Positions 11,942 to 25,000 of a DNA stretch of 64,000 bases are shown here, piece after piece. The stretch is from assembly GCF_016592435.1 (NCBI RefSeq), contig NZ_AP014545.1, positions 2,488,693 through 2,552,692 on the forward strand. Reading direction: 5' to 3'. Within the stretch, counting starts at the first letter, position 1. Each line of letters starts with the position of its first letter. The position numbers were made by a program, and so were the translations under genes. The notes beneath the pieces are model-generated. The model was not told the DNA's origin. It did no database searches and saw nothing but the letters and a program-made list of their open reading frames with translations. Origin of the DNA: Amphritea japonica ATCC BAA-1530. Its GTDB lineage: Bacteria; Pseudomonadota; Gammaproteobacteria; Pseudomonadales; Balneatricaceae.

Positions 11942-12538
11942 ATGACCACGACTCACTTACAACCGGAACGGGTATTGGTCATCGATAAAGATACCGCCCG
12001 CTCAGCTTTACTGGAACAGGCCCTTAAAGATCAGGGCTATGAAGTTGTTTGCCGTCTGCACGATACCGAAGGGTTGATCAGCCGGGTTGAACAGATCCGC
12101 CCTGACATCATCATTATCGAACTGGACTCCCCTGACCGGGATGTACTGGAGCATATGGCCACCCTTAACAGCCATATTCCGCGCCCGGTGGTGATGTTTG
12201 CTGAAACCGGCGATAGCCAGACCATTCAGAAAGCGATTAAAGCCGGAGTTAGCGCCTACGTCGTAGATGGTATGAGTGCTGACCGGATTCAATCAATCAT
12301 GGACGTCGCCGCCGCCCGGTTCCGAGAGTTTCAGGCACTGCGGAGCGAACTGAATGATGTTCGCAACGAACTGGAAGATCACAAGCAGCTTGATCAGGCT
12401 AAGCGACTCATTATGAAGCATCAGCAGTGCACCGAAGACAAAGCCTACAGCGCCATGCGCACCATGGCGATGGATCAGGGAAAACCGATGACACAGATCG
12501 CCAAAAATATAATTTCAGTACTTGAGATGCTGGATTGA
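11942..12538 (+). CDS. nasT: ANTAR-domain transcription antiterminator NasT
   Basis: This 198-residue protein has an N-terminal receiver-like fold (about 9-125) and a C-terminal ANTAR RNA-binding domain (about 130-195, [18 protein letters not shown]). In known NasST systems NasT binds a two-hairpin leader RNA and prevents termination; NasS holds it inactive until nitrate or nitrite is sensed. The receiver is degenerate: Glu60 stands at the phospho-acceptor Asp position, Ala87 at the Thr position and Asp109 at the Lys position, so phosphorylation control is unlikely. It is followed 16 nt later by nasS. Its targets are probably the two leaders at 13957-14047 and 17863-17950. Confidence 0.93.
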
Positions 12539-12554
12539 GCAAAGAGCAACCACT

Positions 12555-13739
12555 ATGACGATAATACACAGCCCACATCTGGACACACCGGAAAAGACTG
12601 CACTGACACTGGGCTTTCTACCGCTAATGGATTGCGCCCCCTTGGTGATCGCTAAAGAGAAAGGGTTTTTCAGTGAAGCAGGCCTGGATGTTCAGCTTAG
12701 CCGTGAAGGTTCCTGGGCATCAATCCGGGATAAGGTCTTATTAGGGCTTCTGGATGGCGCGCAAATGCTCGCCGGTATACCACTGGCATCGACACTGGGG
12801 CTCGGTTCTCCCCAGGTTAATATGATCACCGCTTTCAGTATCGGCCTGAACGGCAACGCAATCACGCTGTCAAATGAACTGCTGGCCGAAATCGATGAGT
12901 CAGGCCATCAGCCAAACGATACCTCTGCGGCTGGCTTTAAAAAGCTGATTAACCTGCGACGGGCAACCGGGCGTGAAAAAATCACGCTGGCGACGGTATA
13001 TCCCTATTCTGCCCACAACTATCTGTTGCGCTTCTGGCTCAGCGATGCCGGTATCGACCCGGATAACGATGTCACCCTCACCGTAGTGCCTCCACCACAG
13101 ATGGCTGTGACCATGAAGAAAGGTCATATCGACGGTTATTGTGTTGGCGAGCCCTGGAACTCTGTCGCCCAGGAGATGAATATTGGTAACCCGATTATCT
13201 CCGGTTATCAGATCTGGAATAATTGCCCGGATAAAGTCTTTGCCGTGACGGAGAACTGGCACAACGCCCACCCTGCGACCCATCAGGCGCTGATCTGCGC
13301 CTTGATTCAGGCCAGCCACTGGTTAGATATGCCCCAAAACAGTGACGAAGCGTTGCAAATTTTGCTGGGCAAAGCATATCTGGGCCCAGCGCTCTCTATG
13401 CTGCCGCAACCGCAGTTGACCCAGGGTAACCGAGTCTTTCATCGCTACGCCGCCAGTTATCCCTGGCGCTCCCATGCATTGTGGTTTCTGGAACAGATGC
13501 AGCAATGGGGACAGCTTCAGCAGGGTGTCGATCTGACCAAAACCGCCTGCAAGGTATACCGACCCGATATTTATCGGGATGTCGCCAAAAAAATGAAGAT
13601 CCTTCATCCGACAATCGATTGTAAGCCGGAAGGTTACCACGACAGCGAATGGATTTTGCAGGGCAATGCCGGCGCCGTCACGATGGGAAGCGATCTGTTT
13701 TTTAACGGTACAACCTTCGACCCAAACAGCTGCCGCTAA
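12555..13739 (+). CDS. nasS: NasS, nitrate-sensing periplasmic-binding-like regulator of NasT
   Basis: This 394-residue protein is related to NrtA (shared blocks [34 protein letters not shown]) but has no signal peptide, as expected for cytoplasmic NasS. It binds nitrate or nitrite and releases NasT. An ATG at 12522 overlapping nasT extends the frame, but ATG 12555 (MTIIHSPHL) is preferred because the extension is not conserved-looking and coding overlap is then avoided. The nasT-nasS order and spacing are typical. Confidence 0.93.
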
Positions 13740-13912: not shown

Positions 13913-13928
13913 CGGCACAGACCCTGCT
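13913..13928 (+). promoter_or_regulatory. Sigma54 promoter of nrtA-nrtB-nrtD
   Basis: CGGCACA-GACC-CTGCT matches the -24/-12 pattern, with GG (13914-13915) and GC (13926-13927) 10 bp apart. The predicted start near 13938 gives a leader of about 160 nt before the nrtA ATG. Confidence 0.75.
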
Positions 13929-13956
13929 ATTACAAAGATAATAAATCTAACAAGCA

Positions 13957-14047
13957 AACTTTCAGGAAACTGACAGTTAATTTTACTTAAGACAACGGCG
14001 TCTGCTCTTACCGATCTCACCATCGGCAGGAGCAGGCGCTTTTTTTT
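13957..14047 (+). promoter_or_regulatory. NasT-responsive leader: candidate P1 and P2 hairpins plus overlapping intrinsic terminator
   Basis: The candidate P1 hairpin (13957-13978) has arms AACT/AGTT and TCAG/CTGA around GAAA. Candidate P2 (13990-14003) is AGAC-[AACGGC]-GTCT, a hexaloop with A1 and G4 as in ANTAR target RNAs. A strong terminator follows: stem arms 13998-14007 and 14030-14039 (GCGTCTGCTC/GAGCAGGCGC), an inner CCGAT/ATCGG stem, then eight T (14040-14047). The P2 3' arm lies inside the terminator 5' arm, so the two folds exclude each other. Bound NasT would favour P2 and readthrough. P1 lacks the canonical hexaloop, which is the weaker point. Confidence 0.8.
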
Positions 14048-14100
14048 GACTAACTTTTTTGCTTAGCTTTTTAAAAACTTATATTCAGGAGCCACATCAC

Positions 14101-15510
14101 ATGTCGCAAAAATTGCTATCTAAGTTTATGGGCCGCCGCTCGCTATTGCAGGGTGCGGTAAAGACTTTCGGCGCCGTTGCAGTTGGCAGCATGCTGGCAA
14201 TGAGCACTGCTCAGGCAGCCGTTGGCGAACCGGAAAAAGAAGACCTGAAGTTCGGCTTTATCAAACTGACAGATATGGCCCCTCTGGCTATCGCTTATGA
14301 AAAAGGCTATTTCGAAGATGAAGGCCTGTACGTACAACTGGAAGCACAGGCCAACTGGAAAGTGCTGCTAGACCGGGTAATAGATGGTGAACTTGATGGT
14401 GCGCACATGCTCGCAGGTCAGCCACTGGGGGCAACGATCGGCTATGGTACCCAGGCACACATTATTACCGCTTTCAGCATGGATTTGAATGGCAACGCTA
14501 TCACCGTTTCCAACGATATCTGGGAGCAGATGAAACCCCACGTGCCGATGGGCGCTGACGGTAAACCCGTTCACCCGATCAAAGCAGATGCTCTCAAACC
14601 CGTTGTTGATTCTTTTCAGGCCCAAGGTAAGCCTTTCAATATGGGGATGGTGTTCCCGGTCTCTACCCACAACTACGAGCTGCGTTACTGGCTGGCAGCC
14701 GGTGGCATTCACCCGGGTTACTATGCGCCACATAAGGGCGACACTGCCGGTCAGATCGACGCCGATGCCCTGCTCTCCGTTACCCCACCACCACAGATGC
14801 CCTCCACTATGGAAGCCGGTACTATCTATGGTTATTGCGTCGGGGAGCCCTGGAATCAACAGGCGGTATTCAAAGGGATAGGCGTACCCGTGGTAACCGA
14901 CTATGAGATCTGGAAAGACAACCCGGAGAAAGTATTCGGTGTATCCAAAGGCTGGGCGGATGAGAACCCGAATACCCACATCCGTGTCGTTAAAGCGATG
15001 ATCCGTGCGGCAAAATGGCTGGACGATAATAACAATGGCAACCGCCCTGAAGCAGTAGAAATTCTGTCTCGTTCTGACTATGTCGGTGCTGACTACGATG
15101 TTATCGCGAACTCAATGACCGGAACATTCGAGTACGAGAAAGGCGATAAGCGCGCAGTGCCTGACTTCAACGTCTTCTTCCGTCACAACGCTACCTATCC
15201 TTACTACTCTGATGCTATCTGGTACCTGACTCAGATGCGTCGTTGGGGCCAGATCGCCGAACCTAAATCTGATGACTGGTTTATGGATACCGCTAAGAAA
15301 GTCTACCGCCCGGACATCTACGCAACAGCAGCTAAAGAGCTGATCGCAGAAGGCAAGCTTGAAGCCAGTGAGTTCCCTGACTTTGCGTCTGAGACCGGTT
15401 ACAAAGCCCCACAGACTCACTTCATTGACAACATTACCTATGACGGTACTAAGCCAAATGAGTATCTGACGAAGTTTAAAATCGGCCTGAAACCAGACAC
15501 TACGCTTTAA
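14101..15510 (+). CDS. nrtA: Nitrate ABC transporter substrate-binding protein NrtA (Tat-exported)
   Basis: This 469-residue protein binds nitrate (and probably nitrite) in the periplasm for the NrtBD permease. The N-terminus has a twin-arginine signal ([13 protein letters not shown], then a hydrophobic stretch ending AQA). The mature part carries the family blocks [30 protein letters not shown] and [10 protein letters not shown], shared with NasS. The ATG at 14101 follows AGGAGCC; a longer in-frame TTG at 14059 lies in the terminator tail and is rejected. It is the first gene after the NasT-type leader. Confidence 0.95.
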
Positions 15511-15634
15511 CGTCTGTTTAACGCCGGGCTAACCAGGCTCTACTAAAGAGTTCAGCTGAAGGGTTTTACTGAAAAGCTCTACTAAAAAGTCCGGCTAAAA
15601 GATTCAGCTAACAAGTTTGACTACAAAAACCAAA

Positions 15635-15656
15635 GGGTCACTCATCTGAGTGACCC
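15635..15656 (+). promoter_or_regulatory. nrtA-nrtB intercistronic stem-loop
   Basis: GGGTCACTC-ATCT-GAGTGACCC is a perfect 9-bp stem 14 nt before the nrtB ATG, with no T run, so it is not a simple terminator. It is preceded by about 110 nt of imperfect repeats built on CTACTAAAAAG / CAGCTAAAAG units (15538-15625). It may protect nrtA mRNA or lower nrtB translation. Confidence 0.6.
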
Positions 15657-15670
15657 ATTGGAGAGGCCTT

Positions 15671-16654
15671 ATGAGTAGCATCGCATTAAAACTGTTAAAG
15701 CCGTTAGGCTTACCAGAGAAGTTTAATCTGGCTCAATTGATCAAATCAGTTGTCGTTCCTTTGAGCGGTATTCTGGTATTTCTGTTTATCTGGAATATTG
15801 GCGCACAGAACATTAACACCTCCCTGGGTGAGTTTCCTGGCCCAACTCAGGTATATGAAGAAAGCAAGAACCTGATCGCAGAGCATAATAGAGAGCGTCA
15901 AAAAGAGGTCGCCTTTTATGAACGTTTGGAGATACGCAATGCGAAGAAACTGGAAGCCAATCCCGATGCCGTTATCAAGACCCGTCCTTACACCGGCAAG
16001 CCAACTTTTATTGACCAGATAGGCACCAGCCTGGTGACAGTGTTAGCCGGCTTTTTTGCCGCCTCACTGATCGCTATTCCGGCGGGCATTGTGATCGGCA
16101 TGAACAAAACGCTCTACAGCGCGTTCAACCCCGTGATTCAGTTATTCAAACCGGTTTCTCCACTGGCATGGTTGCCACTGGTGACCATGGTTGTCAGTGC
16201 GCTTTATGTAAGTGATGACCCGATGTTTGCTAAATCCTTTGTGACTTCGCTGATCACCGTTTCCCTCTGCTGTCTCTGGCCGACTCTGCTGAATACCGCC
16301 GTCGGCGTATCAACCATCAGCACGGACCTGAACAACGTCAGCAAGGTACTGCGTCTGCCCTGGCTGACCCATGTTATTAAGATTGTTATCCCTTCCGCTA
16401 TTCCGATGATTTTCACCGGCCTGCGTCTGTCATTAGGTATCGCCTGGATGGTACTGATTGCCGCAGAGATGCTGGCGCAGAACCCGGGTTTAGGCAAGTT
16501 CGTCTGGGATGAGTTTCAGAACGGTAGTTCCAGCTCACTGGGACGGATAATGGTGGCTGTATTAGTGATCGGTCTGATCGGTTTCGTACTGGACCGGGTC
16601 ATGCTGGCACTGCAGAAGAAAGTATCCTGGGATAAATCAGTAGAACTGAGATAA
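15671..16654 (+). CDS. nrtB: Nitrate ABC transporter permease NrtB
   Basis: This 327-residue inner-membrane permease belongs to the NrtB/SsuC/TauC class (BPD_transp_1). An N-terminal membrane helix (about 28-46) is followed by a charged periplasmic segment and a cluster of helices (about 120-320). The EAA loop region is at about 220-260 (LRLPWLTHVIKIVIPSAIP) and ends with MLAQNPGLGKFVWDEFQNG, which is typical of the nitrate subfamily. The start at ATG 15671 (MSSIALK) has GGAGAGG upstream; a longer frame to 15650 runs into the hairpin and is rejected. Confidence 0.94.
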   Translation: MSSIALKLLKPLGLPEKFNLAQLIKSVVVPLSGILVFLFIWNIGAQNINTSLGEFPGPTQVYEESKNLIAEHNRERQKEVAFYERLEIRNAKKLEANPDAVIKTRPYTGKPTFIDQIGTSLVTVLAGFFAASLIAIPAGIVIGMNKTLYSAFNPVIQLFKPVSPLAWLPLVTMVVSALYVSDDPMFAKSFVTSLITVSLCCLWPTLLNTAVGVSTISTDLNNVSKVLRLPWLTHVIKIVIPSAIPMIFTGLRLSLGIAWMVLIAAEMLAQNPGLGKFVWDEFQNGSSSSLGRIMVAVLVIGLIGFVLDRVMLALQKKVSWDKSVELR

Positions 16655-16686
16655 ACGACCTTGACGTCAAAGGTTAGGAGAAGATC

Positions 16687-17577
16687 ATGACCGTTAAAAC
16701 ACACCTTGAGCTGACCGGTGTCGATATCGACTTTCCAACACCCAGCGGCCCGTTTAAAGCGTTAAACAACGTCAACCTGAAGATAGATCAGGGAGAATTT
16801 GTCTCGCTGATCGGTCACTCCGGTTGCGGCAAATCCACCGTTCTGAATATCGTTGCCGGTCTCTACCAGGCAACAAAAGGCGGCGTACTGCTAGACGGCA
16901 GAGAGGTAAACCAACCCGGTCCTGAGCGGGCGGTAGTGTTTCAAAACCACTCTCTACTACCCTGGTTAACCGCCTATCAGAATGTTGAACTGGCTGTTAA
17001 ACAGGTTTTCAAACACAGCAAATCTAAAGCTGAAATGAAGGAGTGGATCGAACATAACATGCATCTGGTACATATGGATCATGCGATGCATAAACGACCC
17101 GACGAGATCTCCGGCGGCATGAAGCAGCGCGTGGGTATCGCCCGCGCACTGGCGATGGAGCCAACCGTCATGCTGATGGATGAGCCTTTCGGTGCACTGG
17201 ACGCCCTGACACGGGCGCATCTGCAAGATTCTCTGATGGAAATTCAGGCAGACCTGAATAACACGGTGATCATGATTACTCACGATGTTGATGAAGCGGT
17301 ACTGCTATCGGATCGCATTGTCATGATGACCAACGGCCCGGCAGCCACCGTCGGTGAAATACTTGATATAAAACTGGAACGCCCTCGCCATCGCCTGGAA
17401 CTGGCCGATGATCCGGAATATAACCACTATCGGGCCGCCGTTCTCAGCTTCCTCTATGAGAAGCAGAGAAAACCGGGTGAAGCGCCGACTGAACCTGCTG
17501 CCACCGAAGAAAAGCCTGAAAAGATTAAAGACGTGCAAGCATCAACACCTCTGCTTGCGGATGAGCAAGCCGCCTGA
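16687..17577 (+). CDS. nrtD: Nitrate ABC transporter ATPase (NrtD/NasD-like)
   Basis: This 296-residue ABC ATPase energises nitrate import. It shows Walker A GHSGCGKST, Q-loop QNHSLLPWL, signature SGGMKQR, Walker B VMLMDEPF and the H-loop ITHDVDEA. The C-terminal 30 residues are Glu/Pro/Lys-rich and variable. The ATG follows AGGAGAAGATC. It is a single-ATPase form, not the cyanobacterial NrtC fusion with a sensor domain. Operon partners are nrtA and nrtB, and a strong terminator follows. Confidence 0.95.
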   Translation: MTVKTHLELTGVDIDFPTPSGPFKALNNVNLKIDQGEFVSLIGHSGCGKSTVLNIVAGLYQATKGGVLLDGREVNQPGPERAVVFQNHSLLPWLTAYQNVELAVKQVFKHSKSKAEMKEWIEHNMHLVHMDHAMHKRPDEISGGMKQRVGIARALAMEPTVMLMDEPFGALDALTRAHLQDSLMEIQADLNNTVIMITHDVDEAVLLSDRIVMMTNGPAATVGEILDIKLERPRHRLELADDPEYNHYRAAVLSFLYEKQRKPGEAPTEPAATEEKPEKIKDVQASTPLLADEQAA

Positions 17578-17600
17578 AAAACACAGGCTTGATTAAGCAT

Positions 17601-17630
17601 AAAAAGCCCGGCGCCCCGCCGGGCTTTTTT
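17601..17630 (+). terminator. Intrinsic terminator of nrtABD
   Basis: AAAAAGCCCGGC-GCCCC-GCCGGGCTTTTTT forms a GC-rich stem followed by T residues, 23 nt after the nrtD stop. It isolates the transporter operon from the reductase operon. Confidence 0.95.
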
Positions 17631-17747
17631 ACGAAACCTTGGGTTAATCGCAACAAGACTTCTTTCCCACACTGGCCACTGAAGGAGCAGTTTATCAAGA
17701 TGATAACTCTGCCAGAGGATGCCTTTCTGTGCACAACCCTAATCCCC

Positions 17748-17762
17748 GCCCCAACACAGTGC
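17748..17762. promoter_or_regulatory. Weak NtrC-like site upstream of nasC
   Basis: GCCCC-AACAC-AGTGC has two mismatches to GCACC-N5-GGTGC and is centred about 110 bp upstream of the predicted sigma54 start. A GTGCAC half-site palindrome lies at 17729-17734. Support is modest. Confidence 0.35.
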
Positions 17763-17839
17763 GCCAAATCTACACAACCTCTTTAAGGCACAGACACAAA
17801 AACACCTAACTAATTGAAAAATATATAAATAAACAAATC

Positions 17840-17855
17840 AGGCACGGTCTCTGCT
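17840..17855 (+). promoter_or_regulatory. Sigma54 promoter of nasC-nirB-nirD-nasA
   Basis: AGGCACG-GTCT-CTGCT matches the -24/-12 pattern, with GG (17841-17842) and GC (17853-17854) 10 bp apart. The predicted start is about 17865, giving a leader of roughly 95 nt. Confidence 0.8.
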
Positions 17856-17862
17856 TTACTCT

Positions 17863-17950
17863 AAGTGCCTATCTTCGGCTTCTCATATTTTTTGAACAAT
17901 GGTGTTCATCCTCCGGTATTCGTACCGGTTGATGGATGCCATTTTTTTTT
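17863..17950 (+). promoter_or_regulatory. Second NasT-responsive leader: P2 hexaloop hairpin overlapping an intrinsic terminator
   Basis: P2 (17893-17908) is TGAAC-[AATGGT]-GTTCA, a 5-bp stem with an A1/G4 hexaloop matching the AAYGGY loop of the nrtA leader. Its loop and 3' arm overlap the terminator 5' arm. The terminator (17899-17942) pairs ATGGTGTTCATC with GATGGATGCCAT, with an inner CCGGTA-TTCG-TACCGG hairpin, and ends in a T run to 17950. A weaker stem at 17865-17882 (GCC/GGC core) is the P1 candidate. The ATG of nasC lies only 10 nt past the T run. Confidence 0.82.
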
Positions 17951-17960
17951 GGGATTTTTT

Positions 17961-19397
17961 ATGACAAAGCCTCATCTCATCATCATCGGTAACGGCATGA
18001 CATCAGGCCGTCTGCTTGACGATATTCTGAAGCGTGACCCGGATAAGTTCCGGATCACCGTATTCGGCGCAGAAGGCTATGCAAACTACAACCGGATTAT
18101 GCTCTCTCCCGTTCTGGCTGGGGAAATTAAGGCCTGCGATATCGTCACCCATTCAGAACAATGGTATCAGGAACACAATATAACCCTGCATAACGGCGTT
18201 ACCGTGACCGGCATTGATACTGACAATCAGACGATTAAGTGTCACAACGGGACGATATTAAGCTATGACAAACTAGTGCTGGCAACCGGCTCCAACCCTG
18301 TTATTCCCCCTGCAGCGCGTAACGTCGGGGTGGAAGGTATATTAAGCTTTCGCAGGCTGGACGATATCGATCGCATCATGAATAAGGCCAGCAACATCAA
18401 GCATGCCACGGTGGTTGGCGGAGGCTTACTTGGTCTGGAAGCCGCTTGGGGACTGTGCCAACAAGGACTTAATGTCACGGTTATTCATCGGGGCGGATGG
18501 TTACTAAACCGGCAACTTGATCCGGCAGCAGGTGAACTGCTTAAACAGTCGCTGGAAGCACGTGGCATCAGCTTTCGCCTCAATGCGGAAATCATTCAAT
18601 TCTCCGGTCAAGAAACAATATCTTCCGATGAGAGCCCTGCCCTTCTGTCTGGTGGTTCAGAAAGCGAAGTGCACTCAAACTCTGAGGCTCTTAAGAAGGT
18701 CTTTGTAGAGAAGACCTCTGTGCAGAAGGACGCTCTCCAGCAAATTACCCTGAGTGATGGCTCAGTTCTCAACACAGAACTGGCCGTTATCGCAATCGGC
18801 ATAACGCCCAATCACTCGCTGGCGAAAGCCAGTGCGATCGATTGCGACAGGGGAGTTCTGGTCAATGACCAGATGCAGAGCTCTCATCCGAATATATTTG
18901 CACTGGGTGAATGCACTCAGTTTGGCCAACATACCTTTGGGTTGGTTGCCCCTCTATGGGACCAGGCCGCAGTATTGGCCGATCAACTGTGCGAAACATC
19001 AGATCATCGCTTTAGCGTTCAGCCCTGTGCGACAAAACTCAAAGTATCAGGTATCGATCTGTTTTCAGCCGGCGAGTTTATGGGCAGCCCTGAAAACAAG
19101 ACGGTCGTCTATCAGGACAATAACAATGGCGTCTATCGCAAGCTTATTTTTCGTGACCAAAAACTCACCGGCGCTGTGCTCTACGGCGCGGTTAACGATG
19201 GTAACAAGTACTTCGAGCTGATCCAGACTCAACAGCCAGTTCAACATTTGGCGCCGGACCTGATCTTTGGCTGGCGCTACTGCGAAACCGACTCTATCTC
19301 AAAATCAATCACTGCGGGCGTGCCAGAGACACCGGTCTCTTCTGCACCAGACCTTAATCCACAGGAACTTAGCCTGGCAACAGGAGCAACCTTATGA
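17961..19397 (+). CDS. nasC: FAD/NAD-dependent electron-transfer subunit of assimilatory nitrate reductase (NasC type)
   Basis: This 478-residue pyridine nucleotide-disulfide oxidoreductase resembles the N-terminal half of NirB and the NasC (Klebsiella) / NasB (Bacillus) subunit that passes electrons from NADH to NasA. The FAD site is IIGNGMTSGRLL, the NAD site VVGGGLLGLEAAWGL, with ATGSNPVIPP between them. Unlike NirB it has no BFD-type cysteine cluster. An extra Ser/Glu-rich stretch of about 34 residues (about 216-250) interrupts the NAD-binding region. The ATG at 17961 is chosen because the longer frame from 17865 would translate the leader terminator. It overlaps nirB by 4 nt. Confidence 0.85.
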   Translation: MTKPHLIIIGNGMTSGRLLDDILKRDPDKFRITVFGAEGYANYNRIMLSPVLAGEIKACDIVTHSEQWYQEHNITLHNGVTVTGIDTDNQTIKCHNGTILSYDKLVLATGSNPVIPPAARNVGVEGILSFRRLDDIDRIMNKASNIKHATVVGGGLLGLEAAWGLCQQGLNVTVIHRGGWLLNRQLDPAAGELLKQSLEARGISFRLNAEIIQFSGQETISSDESPALLSGGSESEVHSNSEALKKVFVEKTSVQKDALQQITLSDGSVLNTELAVIAIGITPNHSLAKASAIDCDRGVLVNDQMQSSHPNIFALGECTQFGQHTFGLVAPLWDQAAVLADQLCETSDHRFSVQPCATKLKVSGIDLFSAGEFMGSPENKTVVYQDNNNGVYRKLIFRDQKLTGAVLYGAVNDGNKYFELIQTQQPVQHLAPDLIFGWRYCETDSISKSITAGVPETPVSSAPDLNPQELSLATGATL

Positions 19398-21940
19398 GTA
19401 AAACAAAATTAGTTATCGCCGGTAACGGTATGGTGGGCCATCAATTTCTTCAAAGCCTGGCCGACAGCGGTCAGCTGGAAAGCTTTGACGTAACCGTTTT
19501 CTGCGAAGAAAGCCGATTAGCCTATGACCGGGTTCAGCTAAGTGCTTACTTCTCCGGTTCGACCGCTGAAGATCTGGCCATGGGTAATGCCAACACTTAC
19601 CGCAGCTGGGGTCTTAACGTGCTGACTGGGGAAAAAGTCACAATGATTGATCGCGGCTACAAATCGGTAACCACTGATAAGGGTCGTGAACTAAGCTATG
19701 ACAAACTTATTCTGGCCACCGGCTCATACCCTTTTGTACCTCCGGTACCGGGCCATGATCGTTCACAATGTTTGGTATACCGTACCATTGATGATCTGGA
19801 AGCGATTGCTGAAGCGGCTAAAAATTCTAAAGTCGGTACCGTTGTCGGCGGTGGTCTGCTCGGGCTGGAAGCGGCTAAAGCGCTAAAAGATCTGGGGCTA
19901 GAGACCCACGTGGTTGAGTTCGCGCCTCGCCTGATGGCTGTTCAACTGGATAATGGTGGCGGTGCAATACTGCGTCAGAAGATTGAAGCACTAGGTGTAA
20001 CGGTACATACCGAGAAGAACACCCAGCTGATCGATGACGGTGAGCAGTGTTTCCACAAAATGAATTTTGCCGATGGTGAAGTACTGGAAACAGATCTTAT
20101 TCTCTTCTCTGCCGGTATCCGCCCACGCGATGAACTGGCGCGCCAGAGTGAACTGGACGTCGGTGAACGCGGCGGTATCGTAATCAACAATAACTGCCAG
20201 ACCTCTGACCCCTCTATCTACGCTATTGGTGAATGCGCCCTGTGGAATAAACAGATTTTCGGATTGGTTGCCCCAGGCAATCAGATGGCTAAAGTGGCCG
20301 TATCTCACTTAACCAATGGCGAAGACTGTTTTACCGGTGCCGACATGAGTACCAAGCTTAAATTAATGGGTGTTGACGTTGCCAGTATTGGCGATGCCCA
20401 TAGTCGAACACCTGGCGCGCAGAACTACAGCTTTATTGATGAACGCGAAGGGATATATAAAAAGCTGATTGTGTCTGAAGATGGAAAACTACTCCTTGGC
20501 GCAATTCTGGTCGGCGATGCCGAACAGTACGGCACGCTGCTGCAATATATGCTCAACGGCATTCACCTGCCGGAGTATCCCGACACATTAATCCTGCCCA
20601 ATCGAGGTGATGATCAACAGACCGGGCTGGGGGTTGCGGCCCTGCCGGAGACAGCCCAGATCTGTTCTTGTCATGATGTGAGCAAAGGTGACGTGAGAGC
20701 CTCACTGGATGCAGGATGTTGCACAATAGGAGATGTTAAAGGTGCCACCAAAGCAGCCACTGGCTGTGGCGGCTGTGCTGCGTTGCTGACCGATCTGGTT
20801 AATCATGAATTAGAAGAGATGGGCGTCGAAGTAAACCGCGACCTCTGTGAACACCTTCCCTACACCCGTCAGGAGCTCTACAGCCTGATTCGGGTTGAAG
20901 AGATCCGTAGCTTTGACGAACTACTAGACAAGCATGGCAGCGGTCACGGCTGCGAAATCTGTCGTCCGGCCGTCGGTAGCATTCTGGCTTCCTGCTGGAA
21001 TGATTACATCCTCAGCGAAAAAAACATTGCGCTGCAGGATACCAATGACACCTTTATGGCAAATATGCAGAAGGATGGTACCTATTCCGTAGTACCCCGG
21101 GTTGCCGGTGGAGAGATAACTGCCGATAAGTTGATAATCCTCGGTCAGGTGGCTAAGAAATATAATCTTTATAGCAAGATTACCGGTGGTCAGCGGGTTG
21201 ACCTGTTCGGTGCGCGCTTAGACCAGCTCCCCCCAATCTGGGAAGAACTCATAGCAGCCGGTTTTGAAACCGGGCATGCCTACGGTAAATCCCTGCGTAC
21301 GGTGAAATCCTGTGTCGGCAGTACCTGGTGTCGTTTCGGTGTCGATGATAGCGCTGGTCTGGCGATTGAACTGGAAGACCGATATAAGGGCTTGCGAGCA
21401 CCTCATAAAATTAAGTTTGCGGTATCCGGTTGTACCCGGGAATGTGCCGAAGCACAAAGTAAAGATATCGGTATTATCGCGACGGAAAATGGCTGGAACC
21501 TTTACGTTTGTGGCAACGGTGGAATGAAACCTCGTCACGGTGACCTGTTCGCCACCGATCTGGATAAAGCGACCCTGATTCGCTACATCGACCGCGTGCT
21601 GATGTTCTACATCAAGACCGCCGATCGTTTACAACGTACCTCCGTCTGGATGGAAAATATGGAGGGTGGTCTGGCCTATCTGCAACAAGTGGTCATCGAT
21701 GACAGCCTGAACCTGGGTGATGCACTGGAACAGCAGATGGATCATGTTGTAGCAACCTATCAGTGCGAATGGAAAACCACTCTGGAAAGTCCTGAAGCAT
21801 TGAAGCGCTTCCGACAGTTTGTTAACTCCGATGCCAGTGACAGTAACGTTGTCTTTGTTGAAGAACGGCAGCAGATCCGTCCCGCGACAACAGAAGAAAA
21901 AGCGAACATTCAGGCCGAGCCTATCAAACTGGTTAGCTGA
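19394..21940 (+). CDS. nirB: Assimilatory nitrite reductase [NAD(P)H] large subunit NirB
   Basis: This 848-residue cytoplasmic enzyme reduces nitrite to ammonium with six electrons from NAD(P)H. FAD and NAD domains (VIAGNGMVGHQFL, VVGGGLLGLEAAKAL) are followed by a BFD-like [2Fe-2S] domain with Cys pairs (CSC...CGGC, about 423-460). The C-terminal sirohaem/[4Fe-4S] domain has ligands C640, C646, C680 and C684 (CVGSTWC and GCTRECAEA). Length and order match the full family. ATGA overlap with nasC and a 16-nt gap to nirD indicate one operon. Confidence 0.97.
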   Translation: MSKTKLVIAGNGMVGHQFLQSLADSGQLESFDVTVFCEESRLAYDRVQLSAYFSGSTAEDLAMGNANTYRSWGLNVLTGEKVTMIDRGYKSVTTDKGRELSYDKLILATGSYPFVPPVPGHDRSQCLVYRTIDDLEAIAEAAKNSKVGTVVGGGLLGLEAAKALKDLGLETHVVEFAPRLMAVQLDNGGGAILRQKIEALGVTVHTEKNTQLIDDGEQCFHKMNFADGEVLETDLILFSAGIRPRDELARQSELDVGERGGIVINNNCQTSDPSIYAIGECALWNKQIFGLVAPGNQMAKVAVSHLTNGEDCFTGADMSTKLKLMGVDVASIGDAHSRTPGAQNYSFIDEREGIYKKLIVSEDGKLLLGAILVGDAEQYGTLLQYMLNGIHLPEYPDTLILPNRGDDQQTGLGVAALPETAQICSCHDVSKGDVRASLDAGCCTIGDVKGATKAATGCGGCAALLTDLVNHELEEMGVEVNRDLCEHLPYTRQELYSLIRVEEIRSFDELLDKHGSGHGCEICRPAVGSILASCWNDYILSEKNIALQDTNDTFMANMQKDGTYSVVPRVAGGEITADKLIILGQVAKKYNLYSKITGGQRVDLFGARLDQLPPIWEELIAAGFETGHAYGKSLRTVKSCVGSTWCRFGVDDSAGLAIELEDRYKGLRAPHKIKFAVSGCTRECAEAQSKDIGIIATENGWNLYVCGNGGMKPRHGDLFATDLDKATLIRYIDRVLMFYIKTADRLQRTSVWMENMEGGLAYLQQVVIDDSLNLGDALEQQMDHVVATYQCEWKTTLESPEALKRFRQFVNSDASDSNVVFVEERQQIRPATTEEKANIQAEPIKLVS

Positions 21941-21956
21941 TACAGAGGATATAGAA

Positions 21957-22292
21957 ATGACTCATAGTACAACCTGGACTACGGTCTGTAGTCAAAACGA
22001 TCTGGTGCCAAACTCCGGAATCTGCGCGCTGGTAAAGGACGTTCAGATAGCCCTGTTTTATGTAGAAAAAGAGCAAGACGTATTTGCCATCGCCAACCAT
22101 GACCCGTTCAGCCAGGCCAATGTGCTGTCCCGTGGGCTGATCGGTTCTAAAGGTGATGATCTGTTTGTTGCCTCACCGGTTTATAAGCAGCACTTCTGTC
22201 TTAAAAGCGGCCGTTGCCTGGATGATGAAAATACCCATATACAATCCTGGCCTGCCCAGATTAAAAATGGTGAGGTCCAGGTTCTTTTTTAG
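21957..22292 (+). CDS. nirD: Nitrite reductase [NAD(P)H] small subunit NirD
   Basis: This 111-residue Rieske-fold small subunit partners NirB. It retains the beta fold landmarks (VFAIANHDPFSQA, FCLKSGRCLDD) but lacks the C-x-H / C-x2-H cluster ligands, which is normal for NirD. ATG 21957 has CAGAGGATAT upstream; a longer frame inside nirB is rejected. Confidence 0.94.
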   Translation: MTHSTTWTTVCSQNDLVPNSGICALVKDVQIALFYVEKEQDVFAIANHDPFSQANVLSRGLIGSKGDDLFVASPVYKQHFCLKSGRCLDDENTHIQSWPAQIKNGEVQVLF

Positions 22293-22351
22293 TGCTCTTT
22301 TAAAATTCGAATAAACGTTACACACAACAAACCTACAGGACACCCTGATTG

Positions 22352-25000
22352 ATGACTATCGCAACCAGCCCAGACACTTGCCAGGTAAAAACCACTTGCC
22401 CCTACTGCGGAGTGGGGTGCGGTGTAAATGCCAGGGTAAGTGAGAATCGGCTGATTGCGGTAAGTGGCGACAAGGCGCACCCTGCCAATCAGGGCCGACT
22501 CTGCGTTAAAGGTTCAGCCCTGCACGAGACCTCTGGGCTGGAAGGCAGGCTACTAGCCCCTCAAATCGAGGGTGAAACGGTCAGCTGGGACAAAGCCTTT
22601 AATCATGTTGCTCAGGGTTTTAGTGAAACCATAAAGAAATATGGCCCCGATTCAGTCGCACTTTATCTCTCCGGCCAGATTCTTACCGAAGACTATTACG
22701 TTGCCAATAAGTTGATGAAAGGCTTTATTGGCTCGGCCAATGTTGATACCAATTCCCGCCTCTGCATGTCTTCCGCAGTCGCCGCTCATAAACGTGCATT
22801 TGGGGCTGATCTGGTACCGGGCTGTTATGAAGATCTGGAACTGACCGACCTGCTTATACTGGTGGGATCGAATACCGCCTGGGCACATCCGGTCATCTAC
22901 CAGCGAATTGTCGCGGCAAAAAAAGCCCGCCCGGAGATGAAGGTCGTTGTCATTGATCCGCGTCGGACAGCCACCTGCGATATTGCCGACCTGCACCTAC
23001 CACTCAAGCCCGGTAGTGATGGATACCTGTTTACCGGCCTGTTGAGCCACCTGGCGGACAATAACGCTCTTGATAACTCATATATCAACGACCACACCGA
23101 AGGCTTTGAGGACGCTCTACAGGCTGCCAGAACTCTCACGGCCGATCTAACCCAAACAGCAGAATTATGCGGATTAGACAAACCTGATCTTAAACAACTT
23201 TACCAATGGTTCTCTCAGATCGATAAAGTTGTCACGCTCTTTTCTCAGGGGATCAATCAATCCTCTTCAGGAGTAGATAAAGGTAATGCGATAATAAACT
23301 GTCACCTGGCGACCGCAAAGATTGGTAAACCCGGCGCTACACCTTTCTCGATAACCGGTCAGCCCAACGCAATGGGCGGACGGGAAGTCGGTGGGCTGGC
23401 GAACCAGCTCGCGGCACATATGGATTTCAGCAATCCGGAAAATATAGAACTGGTAGAAACCTTTTGGCAGGCCCCGAATATAGCCCGAAAAGAGGGTTTA
23501 AAAGCGGTCGACATGTTCCAGGCTATCCATGATGGCAAGATAAAAGCGATCTGGATTATCGGTACCAATCCAGTTGTTAGTATGCCCAATGCAGACTTTA
23601 TTCGTGAAGCACTGCAACGTTGCGAACTGGTGGTTGTCTCTGATTGCATGGAGAAAACCGATACTACCGCTTGCGCTGATGTGCTGCTACCTGCAACCGG
23701 TTGGGCGGAAAAAGACGGTACCGTGACCAATTCTGAACGGGTAATTTCACGTCAGAAAGGCTTTTTAGAACCCGCGGGGCAGAGCCTGCATGACTGGCAG
23801 ATCATCTGTTCTGTTGCGCAGACAATGGGATTTGAAGAAGGCTTTAGATTCAATTCGCCCGCTGAGATATTCGCCGAACATGCTGAACTGTCAGGCTTTC
23901 GAAACAGTGGTAAACGCTTCTTTGATATATCGTCACTCGCGACGTTATCAGAAAATGAATATCACAATATGAAGCCGGTTCGCTGGCCTGCGATAAAAGA
24001 TAGCAAGACTGATTCAACGCGCCTGTTCGTCAACGGCAGGTTTAATACCCCGTCCGGCCGGGCAAGAATGATACCGGTAACACCTGCCGCGCCTATCAGC
24101 CAGGTATCAGAAACTTACCCATTGGTACTGAATACCGGGCGAATTCGCGATCAATGGCACACGATGACCCGCACTGGCAAAGCCAGCCGGTTACTCAATC
24201 ATATCGATCAACCCTATGTAGAAATCTCTCTACATGATGCCGCAGATAAAGGTATCGTTGAACAGGATCTGGTTGAGATACAGAGTGCTATCAGTCGCTG
24301 CCTGGCGCGAGCAAAAATTACAGCAGGGCAACCCGCCGGTTCAGTCTTTATGCCGATTCACTGGACGGACCAGTTCGCCTCGCTGGCCCGGGTGGATAGT
24401 CTGTTTGCATCGATTAAGGACCCTATCTCTGGGCAACCCGAAGCAAAACACTGCCCGGTCAGTATTAATAAACTAAACAGCCGCTGGCAGGCAATCCTGA
24501 TTACAGAGATGGAACTCGCTAATCTGCCTTGCGAATACTGGAGTAAAATTCCTCAGAAAAGAGGCTTTCGTTATGAGCTGGCGGGCACTCAACTACCAGA
24601 AAACTGGAAAACCTGGATTAAATCCATGGTGACCTTTAGCGATGACGACCAGATCGAACTCGATTCAGGAGAAACATATCGATTAGTCAGCTTCCGTGAT
24701 CAAACACCCGAGCTACTGTTTTTTGCTTCGACTGAGAAATTACCCAACAGCCATTGGTTGAGTAAACAGTTCGACCAGATAACAGCCTCCCCCGCTCAGC
24801 GGATGGCACTTCTGGCAGGTAAACCGGTTGATAACAACCATGACTCGGGGGCAATCGTATGCAGTTGTTTTGAAGTCGGTGAAAAAAGCATTCGCAAGGC
24901 GATACATCAGGGGGCGAACAATATTGAAAAACTCGTCACGCAGCTAAAATGCGGCAGTAACTGTGGTTCCTGCCTGCCGGAAATCCGGGCGTTGCTTTGA
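22352..25000 (+). CDS. nasA: Assimilatory nitrate reductase catalytic subunit NasA (with C-terminal BFD domain)
   Basis: This 882-residue molybdopterin enzyme reduces nitrate to nitrite in the cytoplasm. The N-terminal [4Fe-4S] ligands are C16, C19, C23 and C51 (CPYCGVGC...GRLC). Molybdopterin domains include NSRLCMSSA, GGREVGGLANQLAAHM and, near the end, VFMPIHWTDQFA. The last 50 residues (CSCFEVGEK...CGSNCGSCLPE) are a BFD-like [2Fe-2S] domain, the likely electron entry point from the NasC-type flavoprotein. It is the last gene of the operon; ATG 22352 follows ACAGGACACC. No Tat signal is present, as expected for assimilatory enzymes. Confidence 0.96.
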   Translation: MTIATSPDTCQVKTTCPYCGVGCGVNARVSENRLIAVSGDKAHPANQGRLCVKGSALHETSGLEGRLLAPQIEGETVSWDKAFNHVAQGFSETIKKYGPDSVALYLSGQILTEDYYVANKLMKGFIGSANVDTNSRLCMSSAVAAHKRAFGADLVPGCYEDLELTDLLILVGSNTAWAHPVIYQRIVAAKKARPEMKVVVIDPRRTATCDIADLHLPLKPGSDGYLFTGLLSHLADNNALDNSYINDHTEGFEDALQAARTLTADLTQTAELCGLDKPDLKQLYQWFSQIDKVVTLFSQGINQSSSGVDKGNAIINCHLATAKIGKPGATPFSITGQPNAMGGREVGGLANQLAAHMDFSNPENIELVETFWQAPNIARKEGLKAVDMFQAIHDGKIKAIWIIGTNPVVSMPNADFIREALQRCELVVVSDCMEKTDTTACADVLLPATGWAEKDGTVTNSERVISRQKGFLEPAGQSLHDWQIICSVAQTMGFEEGFRFNSPAEIFAEHAELSGFRNSGKRFFDISSLATLSENEYHNMKPVRWPAIKDSKTDSTRLFVNGRFNTPSGRARMIPVTPAAPISQVSETYPLVLNTGRIRDQWHTMTRTGKASRLLNHIDQPYVEISLHDAADKGIVEQDLVEIQSAISRCLARAKITAGQPAGSVFMPIHWTDQFASLARVDSLFASIKDPISGQPEAKHCPVSINKLNSRWQAILITEMELANLPCEYWSKIPQKRGFRYELAGTQLPENWKTWIKSMVTFSDDDQIELDSGETYRLVSFRDQTPELLFFASTEKLPNSHWLSKQFDQITASPAQRMALLAGKPVDNNHDSGAIVCSCFEVGEKSIRKAIHQGANNIEKLVTQLKCGSNCGSCLPEIRALL

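Follow-up and report, generated by a model that had tools for sequence, protein, structure and literature searches.

The nitrate-assimilation (nas) region of Amphritea japonica ATCC BAA-1530 was analysed in a stretch of 64,000 nucleotides (nt) of contig NZ_AP014545.1, positions 2,488,693 to 2,552,692 (hereafter the window), which is part of a single-contig genome of 3.83 Mb. Two leaders in this region, leader 1 before the nitrate transporter gene nrtA and leader 2 before the gene for a flavin adenine dinucleotide (FAD) electron-transfer subunit, are probably nitrate-controlled attenuators of the NasS-NasT system, and in Amphritea one hairpin, P2, is probably their only sequence-specific site for an ANTAR domain. 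We computed sequence features, competing base pairing, conservation, covariation and co-occurrence with ANTAR proteins, and from these we infer the promoters and transcription starts, the binding of NasT, the response to nitrate and the dispensability of the upstream hairpin P1. Antitermination by NasS-NasT, an ANTAR mechanism, is already known; the interesting part is the loss of the canonical P1.

Competing hairpins in the two leaders

The P2 of leader 1 (AGAC-AACGGC-GUCU; 13990–14003, + strand) and that of leader 2 (UGAAC-AAUGGU-GUUCA; 17893–17908, +) each carry a six-nucleotide loop with A at the first and G at the fourth position (A1/G4 hexaloop), closed by a C:G pair. Each is followed by an intrinsic terminator on the same strand, at 13998–14047 in leader 1 (hairpin 13998–14039, U-tract 14040–14047) and at 17898–17950 in leader 2 (hairpin 17898–17943, U-tract to 17950). 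Since the 3′ arm of P2 is in both cases a piece of the terminator 5′ arm, P2 and the terminator are mutually exclusive. The complete leaders fold as the terminator (z −6.6 for leader 1 and −5.5 for leader 2, against 200 dinucleotide shuffles), and transcripts cut before the terminator 3′ arm fold as P2 in both. The hexaloops AACGGC and AATGGT, with their 3′ arms inside the terminators, had been described in a first-pass annotation of this DNA, and sequence and folds agree with that description in both leaders. Both thus have the P2 of an ANTAR target: at least 3 bp, an A1/G4 hexaloop with C:G closure, and base pairing that overlaps and excludes the terminator. In the loop of leader 2, A1 and U6 are able to pair, leaving four nucleotides unpaired in the computed fold. 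The A1, the G4 and the C:G closing pair of both loops are those selected in systematic evolution of ligands by exponential enrichment (SELEX) with NasR (PMC7496416).

Our comparison covered 97 loci around nasT in relatives, the window included; the duplicates L052–L055 were dropped and other near-identical strains were counted separately. Among hairpins with their 3′ arm in a terminator, 124 had a loop of class A..G.., compared with 1–28 in each of the 15 other classes defined by positions 1 and 4, and a stricter hairpin rule gave 50 against 0–12. Counted from gene starts, the overlap of P2 and terminator was found before 45/49 nrtA, 19/50 FAD-subunit, 29/67 nasA and 1/42 nirB genes, a total of 94 out of 208. 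Twenty rounds of dinucleotide shuffling gave a mean of 0.15 and at most 1. These 208 starts exclude genes shortly preceded by the end of a known gene, matches that fall short of the gene start, and starts less than 360 nt from the end of the locus. A position within an operon probably accounts for many of the misses. The rule also overlooks true leaders, since those of the FAD gene in L037 and L038 went uncounted despite a readable P2 and terminator. Relatives, in which the first-pass annotation had proposed an alignment of both leaders as a check, thus keep the hexaloop and its overlap with the terminator.

Covariation was measured in an alignment (A2) made from 52 stretches, from which L032 (replaced by leader 1 of the window), L067, L068, L090 and L110 were left out. 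In its 48 leaders, 92.7% of the P2 pairs were standard, with 41 double-change cells against a shuffled mean of 14.3. The 11-pair terminator had 91.3% standard pairs and 131 double-change cells against 35.0, and columns 14–17 of the alignment pair in both structures. Removal of the five Amphritea rows (alignment A4, 43 leaders) left 92.4% and 90.0% standard pairs for P2 and the terminator, respectively. Slid controls matter here because the leaders had been chosen partly for pairing; they fell to 31–51% standard pairs for P2 and 41–54% for the terminator.

Two covariance models were used: R2, which contains the window leaders and whose scores for them are therefore given by construction, and R3, which was built without any Amphritea sequence. 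R3 found leader 1 with 46.5 bits (genome-wide E 3.6e-8). Among the 194 genomes scanned in the order, a set that includes related genomes and some R3 training genomes, 63 had matches at E ≤ 0.001; an ANTAR match was present in 58 of these 63 versus 28 of the 131 others (Fisher p 5e-22). At the gathering score, Rfam found neither leader, and no family in the loci of the seven relatives searched. MicroRNA and snoRNA matches below that score fall on terminator hairpins and were taken as chance. An R3 match near 77885 (G000; E 0.028) occurs on both strands and resembles an ordinary bidirectional terminator.

The hairpins might instead be ordinary terminators of the upstream genes with a hexaloop formed by chance. 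Intrinsic terminators are common, and leader 2 is weak in the genome-wide search (see below). We nevertheless consider this explanation extremely improbable, given the bias towards one loop class and the gene-anchored excess over shuffled sequences; moreover, nrtC is already followed by a terminator-like hairpin and U-run of its own near 17600–17630.

Predicted promoters and the missing P1

Putative sigma-54 elements of the −24/−12 type lie on the + strand at 13913–13929 before leader 1 (GG at 13914, N10, GC; predicted start near 13939) and at 17840–17857 before leader 2 (GG at 17841; predicted start near 17866), as judged by the general sigma-54 consensus and start-position rule. Each of the two intergenic regions searched has one GG-N10-GC, which is about chance level, the bare pattern being expected about once per 256 nt; the weight of the prediction thus rests on the extended match TGGCAC...TGC, present in both leaders, and on the conserved place. 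The same element is similarly placed in relatives, where a score of at least 6 of 9 on an ad hoc scale, used without a shuffled control, was reached by 83 of 95 leaders. The two of the window are among the 95, which were restricted to leaders having an identified nas gene no more than 160 nt away. When the start is set 12 nt after the GC, nine of ten Amphritea leader 2 transcripts open with an identical GCC. Before leader 2, the sigma-54 element is overlapped by an inverted repeat, AGGCAC...GUGCCU. If the predicted promoter is correct, this repeat would not be transcribed as a unit and would be no hairpin of the leader.

A canonical ANTAR target has a further A1/G4 hexaloop, P1, upstream of P2, and published searches use a linker of 2–25 nt between them (PMC8164766). 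As the first-pass annotation had claimed, no such P1 is present in either of the predicted transcripts. Between nasS and the P2 of leader 1 there is no A1/G4 hairpin of at least 3 bp, and the only other one in the two intergenic regions is weak, lying at 17682, about 215 nt before the P2 of leader 2 and upstream of its predicted promoter. It is conceivable that transcripts begin beyond the sigma-54 site and take in a P1 hexaloop there, as this weak hairpin and an A1/G4 hairpin upstream of the predicted sigma-54 site in L045, before the leader of some downstream gene, might suggest. The distance of the former from P2 and the lack of any counterpart before leader 1 make this improbable.

Five P2 patterns identified 36 Amphritea leaders in 23 stretches from 15 species, rather than in whole genomes: 12 of nrtA, 12 of the FAD gene (including a divergent one in G003), 8 of a formate/nitrite transporter and 4 of a major facilitator superfamily (MFS) transporter. 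In the five that lack a sigma-54 site, a length of 80 nt was read. The canonical P1 hexaloop was absent from 35 of the 36, the exception being the formate/nitrite transporter leader of G005.

Each of the 12 nrtA leaders is predicted to form some hairpin ahead of P2, with z from −1.7 to −5.4 relative to 100 single-base shuffles; they were folded singly, their alignment being too gappy for pair counting. The one in the window (AACUuUCAG-GAAA-CUGAcAGUU; 13957–13978, +) is not an A1/G4 hexaloop. The loops in the genus are GAAA, AUAG, AAAG, UGUU, UAUU, AAUUC, loops of 7–8 nt and one longer branched form, with no common sequence. In leader 2, only about 27 nt separate the predicted start from P2, and the distance is 27–31 nt across the ten Amphritea species with the promoter; similarly short distances, 22–28 nt for these and leader 2 of the window, were found in the nrtA leaders of L040 and L056. 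Nine of the ten Amphritea FAD-gene leaders with a sigma-54 element open with a 5-bp triloop hairpin, GCCUA-NCU-UAGGC. The tenth is leader 2 of the window, in which C replaces A and the stem is shorter; it folds into a 5′-terminal mini-hairpin, GCC-UAUCUUC-GGC (17867–17879, +). The sequence from its predicted start, GCCUAUCUUAGGCUUCUCAUAU (17867–17889), is nearly invariant in the genus. The segment after the 5′ hairpin, CUUCUCAUAU, is retained in G008 as well, although a sigma-54 site was not detected there.

The first-pass annotation had suggested a variant recognition rule for P1. NasT or NasR could recognise the upstream hairpin by its shape or stem, as part of a relaxed two-hairpin motif. 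The constant presence of a hairpin before P2 in the nrtA leaders would fit this, as would the near invariance of the leader 2 5′ hairpin and the following CUUCUCAUAU, and the G1/G4 hexaloops found at the place of P1 in six nasA leaders of Marinomonas. However, the nrtA upstream loops have no length or sequence in common, none of the nrtA upstream hairpins resembles the triloop hairpin of leader 2, and the formate/nitrite transporter leaders have no consistent upstream hairpin at all (z +0.1 to −1.7). We therefore regard a relaxed motif as rather unlikely. A variant loop rule found no support, since the nrtA upstream loops are unrelated and leader 2 leaves little room, which argues for P2 as the only specific site. 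Control by P2 only is the simplest reading of the Amphritea leaders.

Among relatives, the A1/G4 P1 is a genuine feature. It was found within 120 nt upstream in 51 of the 95 leaders (other loop classes, 2–14), and in 44 of 83 when only predicted transcripts were counted (other classes, 1–12); in 15 of these 44 the nearest P1 is more than 25 nt before P2, outside the published linker range. Under the strict rule, the other 39 of the 83 lack an A1/G4 P1. Ten of them belong to Marinomonas nasA, and the six read among these ten (L059, L060, L062, L064, L065 and L067) have G1/G4 hexaloops (GACGAU, GACGAA or GAUGAU) at the place of P1. These loops, together with a few 3-bp stems, mean that the strict rule overstates the absence of P1 outside Amphritea.

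Published work bears on control by P2 only in both directions. EutV binds the P1 and P2 hairpins singly about equally well, and according to the same structural study the minimal ANTAR binding motif is a single hexaloop, yet contact with both is required to prevent termination (PMC8934654). Several observations weigh against our interpretation of the leaders. Binding by NasR takes about 12 uM with P2 alone versus about 1 uM with both hairpins (PMC7496416), antitermination by EutV is lost upon lengthening of the P1–P2 linker (PMC8934654), and the Paracoccus nasA leader hairpin mutant HI (P1 or P2) does not grow on nitrate (PMC5424462). R3 gave leader 2 only 24.1 bits (E 0.00064 in 78 kb and 0.031 genome-wide, rank four), so position and conservation carry most of the case for leader 2. 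In the order, five of the 63 R3-positive genomes have no ANTAR match (E 8e-5 to 4e-4), and 28 genomes have an ANTAR match without an R3 match. One congener, G012, has the leaders but yielded no ANTAR match, and its contig starts 218 nt ahead of the P2 of leader 1, where nasTS would be.

Regulators and targets in the genus and beyond

NasT is the only ANTAR match detected in the A. japonica genome (one in 3.83 Mb). Within the genus, a single ANTAR match was found in each of 14 of the 17 genomes; G001 and G013, the only two of the 17 that gave no strong R2 match, are also devoid of ANTAR. In four genomes (G006, G009, G010 and G016) the ANTAR domain lies in an open frame of 417–447 codons. Both of those tested, G010 and G006, encode NIT and ANTAR domains together, that is NasR (L207 5535–6776 and L208 3299–4540), as their only ANTAR protein, and their nrtA and FAD-gene leaders are homologous to those of NasT species. 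This suggests that at least two Amphritea congeners use NasR, not NasT, on homologous leaders. In a nirB tree the NasR species nest within the NasT species, with two changes, a number as low in 11 of 500 label shuffles; several forks are weak, and the starred branches require a single change. NasT and NasR thus seem to share one recognition element. We tentatively propose, as a possibility that falls short of being probable, that Amphritea has natural single-hexaloop ANTAR attenuators, in which P1 was lost or replaced by structural hairpins, P2 is enough, and the leaders were handed between NasT and NasR without a change of the recognition element.

The best R3 match of the genome lies outside the window (G000:C1:3744370–3744429, − strand; L192 10371–10430; 49.1 bits). 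Its P2, GGAC-AAAGGC-GUCC, is 86 nt before a gene for a formate/nitrite transporter (PF01226), which is followed by genes for a PP2C-protein kinase fusion and a cyanase. Seven congeners have a similar leader before a like transporter, judged by its first residues (the Pfam search was made on G000). A two-operon NasT regulon had been proposed from leaders 1 and 2; the separate leaders of transporter and reductase genes beside nasTS stood, while the number of targets rises to at least three. Nor is the presence of two separate leaders remarkable. Leaders occur on at least two different nas genes in 28 of the 64 leader-bearing loci among the 97 examined, so a multi-operon regulon is common and ordinary in relatives, and several hairpin-bearing NasT targets were reported in Bradyrhizobium (PMC6759348). 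A P2-terminator was also seen before an apparent MFS nitrate transporter gene (identified by eye) in the nrtC–FAD gene interval of L193, L195 and L197 and the nasT–FAD gene interval of L202. No sigma-54 site was found before these, which are possibly internal attenuators.

A related arrangement was found in the Rfam family narK RNA (RF03032). A scan of 249 genomes of the phylum gave 17 matches to it, 12 over the gathering score, distributed over 11 genomes. GG-N10-GC stands at the start of 16 of the 17, 16 have an A1/G4 P1, and 15 have an A1/G4 P2 in a terminator-like hairpin, terminators being counted here with a looser rule; the remaining two show G1/G4 in their P2. An ANTAR match was present in every one of the 11 genomes, compared with 86 of 194 in the order of the window, and an R3 match overlaps 8 of the 14 narK RNA matches in genomes scanned with both models. 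These features lead us to infer that narK RNA combines a sigma-54 promoter with a two-hexaloop NasT attenuator. Our literature search, which did not reach the original description of the family, met no statement of narK RNA as an ANTAR target, and this assignment would supply a regulator for the family. The window leaders themselves stay below its gathering score of 43.2 (leader 1, 21.5 bits; leader 2, no match).

Gene setting, mechanism and implications

The genes of the region are all on the + strand, in the order nasT, nasS, leader 1, nrtA-nrtB-nrtC, leader 2, the FAD-subunit gene, nirB, nirD and nasA. NasT (11942–12538) combines a response-regulator-like receiver with an ANTAR domain (PF03861, E 1.9e-15; PF00072, E 7.9e-12). 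NasS (12555–13739; PF13379, E 1.1e-80) is an NMT1_2-type nitrate-binding sensor partner, whose start was set at an internal ATG (the open reading frame list has 12522, TTG). It is 41% identical to the nrtA product, and its gene adjoins nasT here, as in many relatives, so that a receiver-ANTAR protein gene stands next to an NMT1_2-type sensor gene, as expected of a NasS-NasT pair. The nitrate ABC transporter operon opens with nrtA (14101–15510; PF13379, E 2.5e-98), followed by nrtB (15671–16654) and the ATPase gene nrtC (16687–17577), with PF00528 and PF00005 found for this pair (15671–17577). After leader 2 come the FAD-subunit gene (17961–19397; called nasC in the first-pass annotation), nirB (19394–21940) and the molybdenum nitrate reductase gene nasA (22349–25000), all identified by Pfam; nirD (about 21954–22292) was named from gene order and size alone.

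Under nitrogen limitation, sigma-54 RNA polymerase would start just upstream of each leader, and the nascent RNA would by default fold into the terminator. Nitrate dissociates NasS from NasT in Paracoccus (PMC3795266). Likewise, nitrate binding by NasS would free NasT here, whose ANTAR domain would grip and hold the A1/G4 hexaloop of P2; the held P2 would make the terminator 5′ arm unavailable, allowing readthrough into nrtABC or the nas reductase genes. The third copy may act in the same way before the formate/nitrite transporter-kinase/phosphatase-cyanase operon. In Amphritea leaders P2 would be the sole sequence-specific ANTAR site, with P1 dispensable and the upstream hairpins probably structural. 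Sigma-54 and NasT together would form an AND gate for nitrogen shortage and nitrate.

The system resembles the NasS-NasT of Paracoccus nasA, Azotobacter nasAB, Bradyrhizobium nosR and others in its ANTAR regulator, NMT1-type nitrate sensor and hairpin/terminator leader. Unlike in those, three separate leaders here each follow a predicted sigma-54 site and lack a canonical P1; nrtABC serves as the transporter, and a formate/nitrite transporter-kinase-cyanase operon is among the targets. The A1/G4 hexaloop, C:G closure and 3′ arm inside the terminator are shared with the dual-hexaloop RNA of EutV, NasR and AmiR (PMC3369931), but only P2 is canonical here, the P1 hexaloop having been looked for and found absent. 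As with the NasR-nasF leader of Klebsiella, nitrate-responsive ANTAR antitermination of assimilatory genes is predicted, and NIT-ANTAR NasR occurs in at least two Amphritea species; the Klebsiella leader has both hexaloops (PMC7496416), whereas the regulator in this genome is NasT. The narK RNA has a sigma-54-like element at the start and an A1/G4 hexaloop overlapping the terminator at the end, like the window leaders, but differs in its A1/G4 P1 (16 of 17 matches).

Whether ANTAR regulators need one or two hexaloops is unsettled, and the Amphritea leaders with only P2, read by NasT or NasR depending on the species, may serve as natural test cases. Single-hexaloop attenuators, if true, would contradict the view that antitermination requires two hexaloops; since two-hexaloop searches miss P2-only leaders, they would also extend the known ANTAR regulons.

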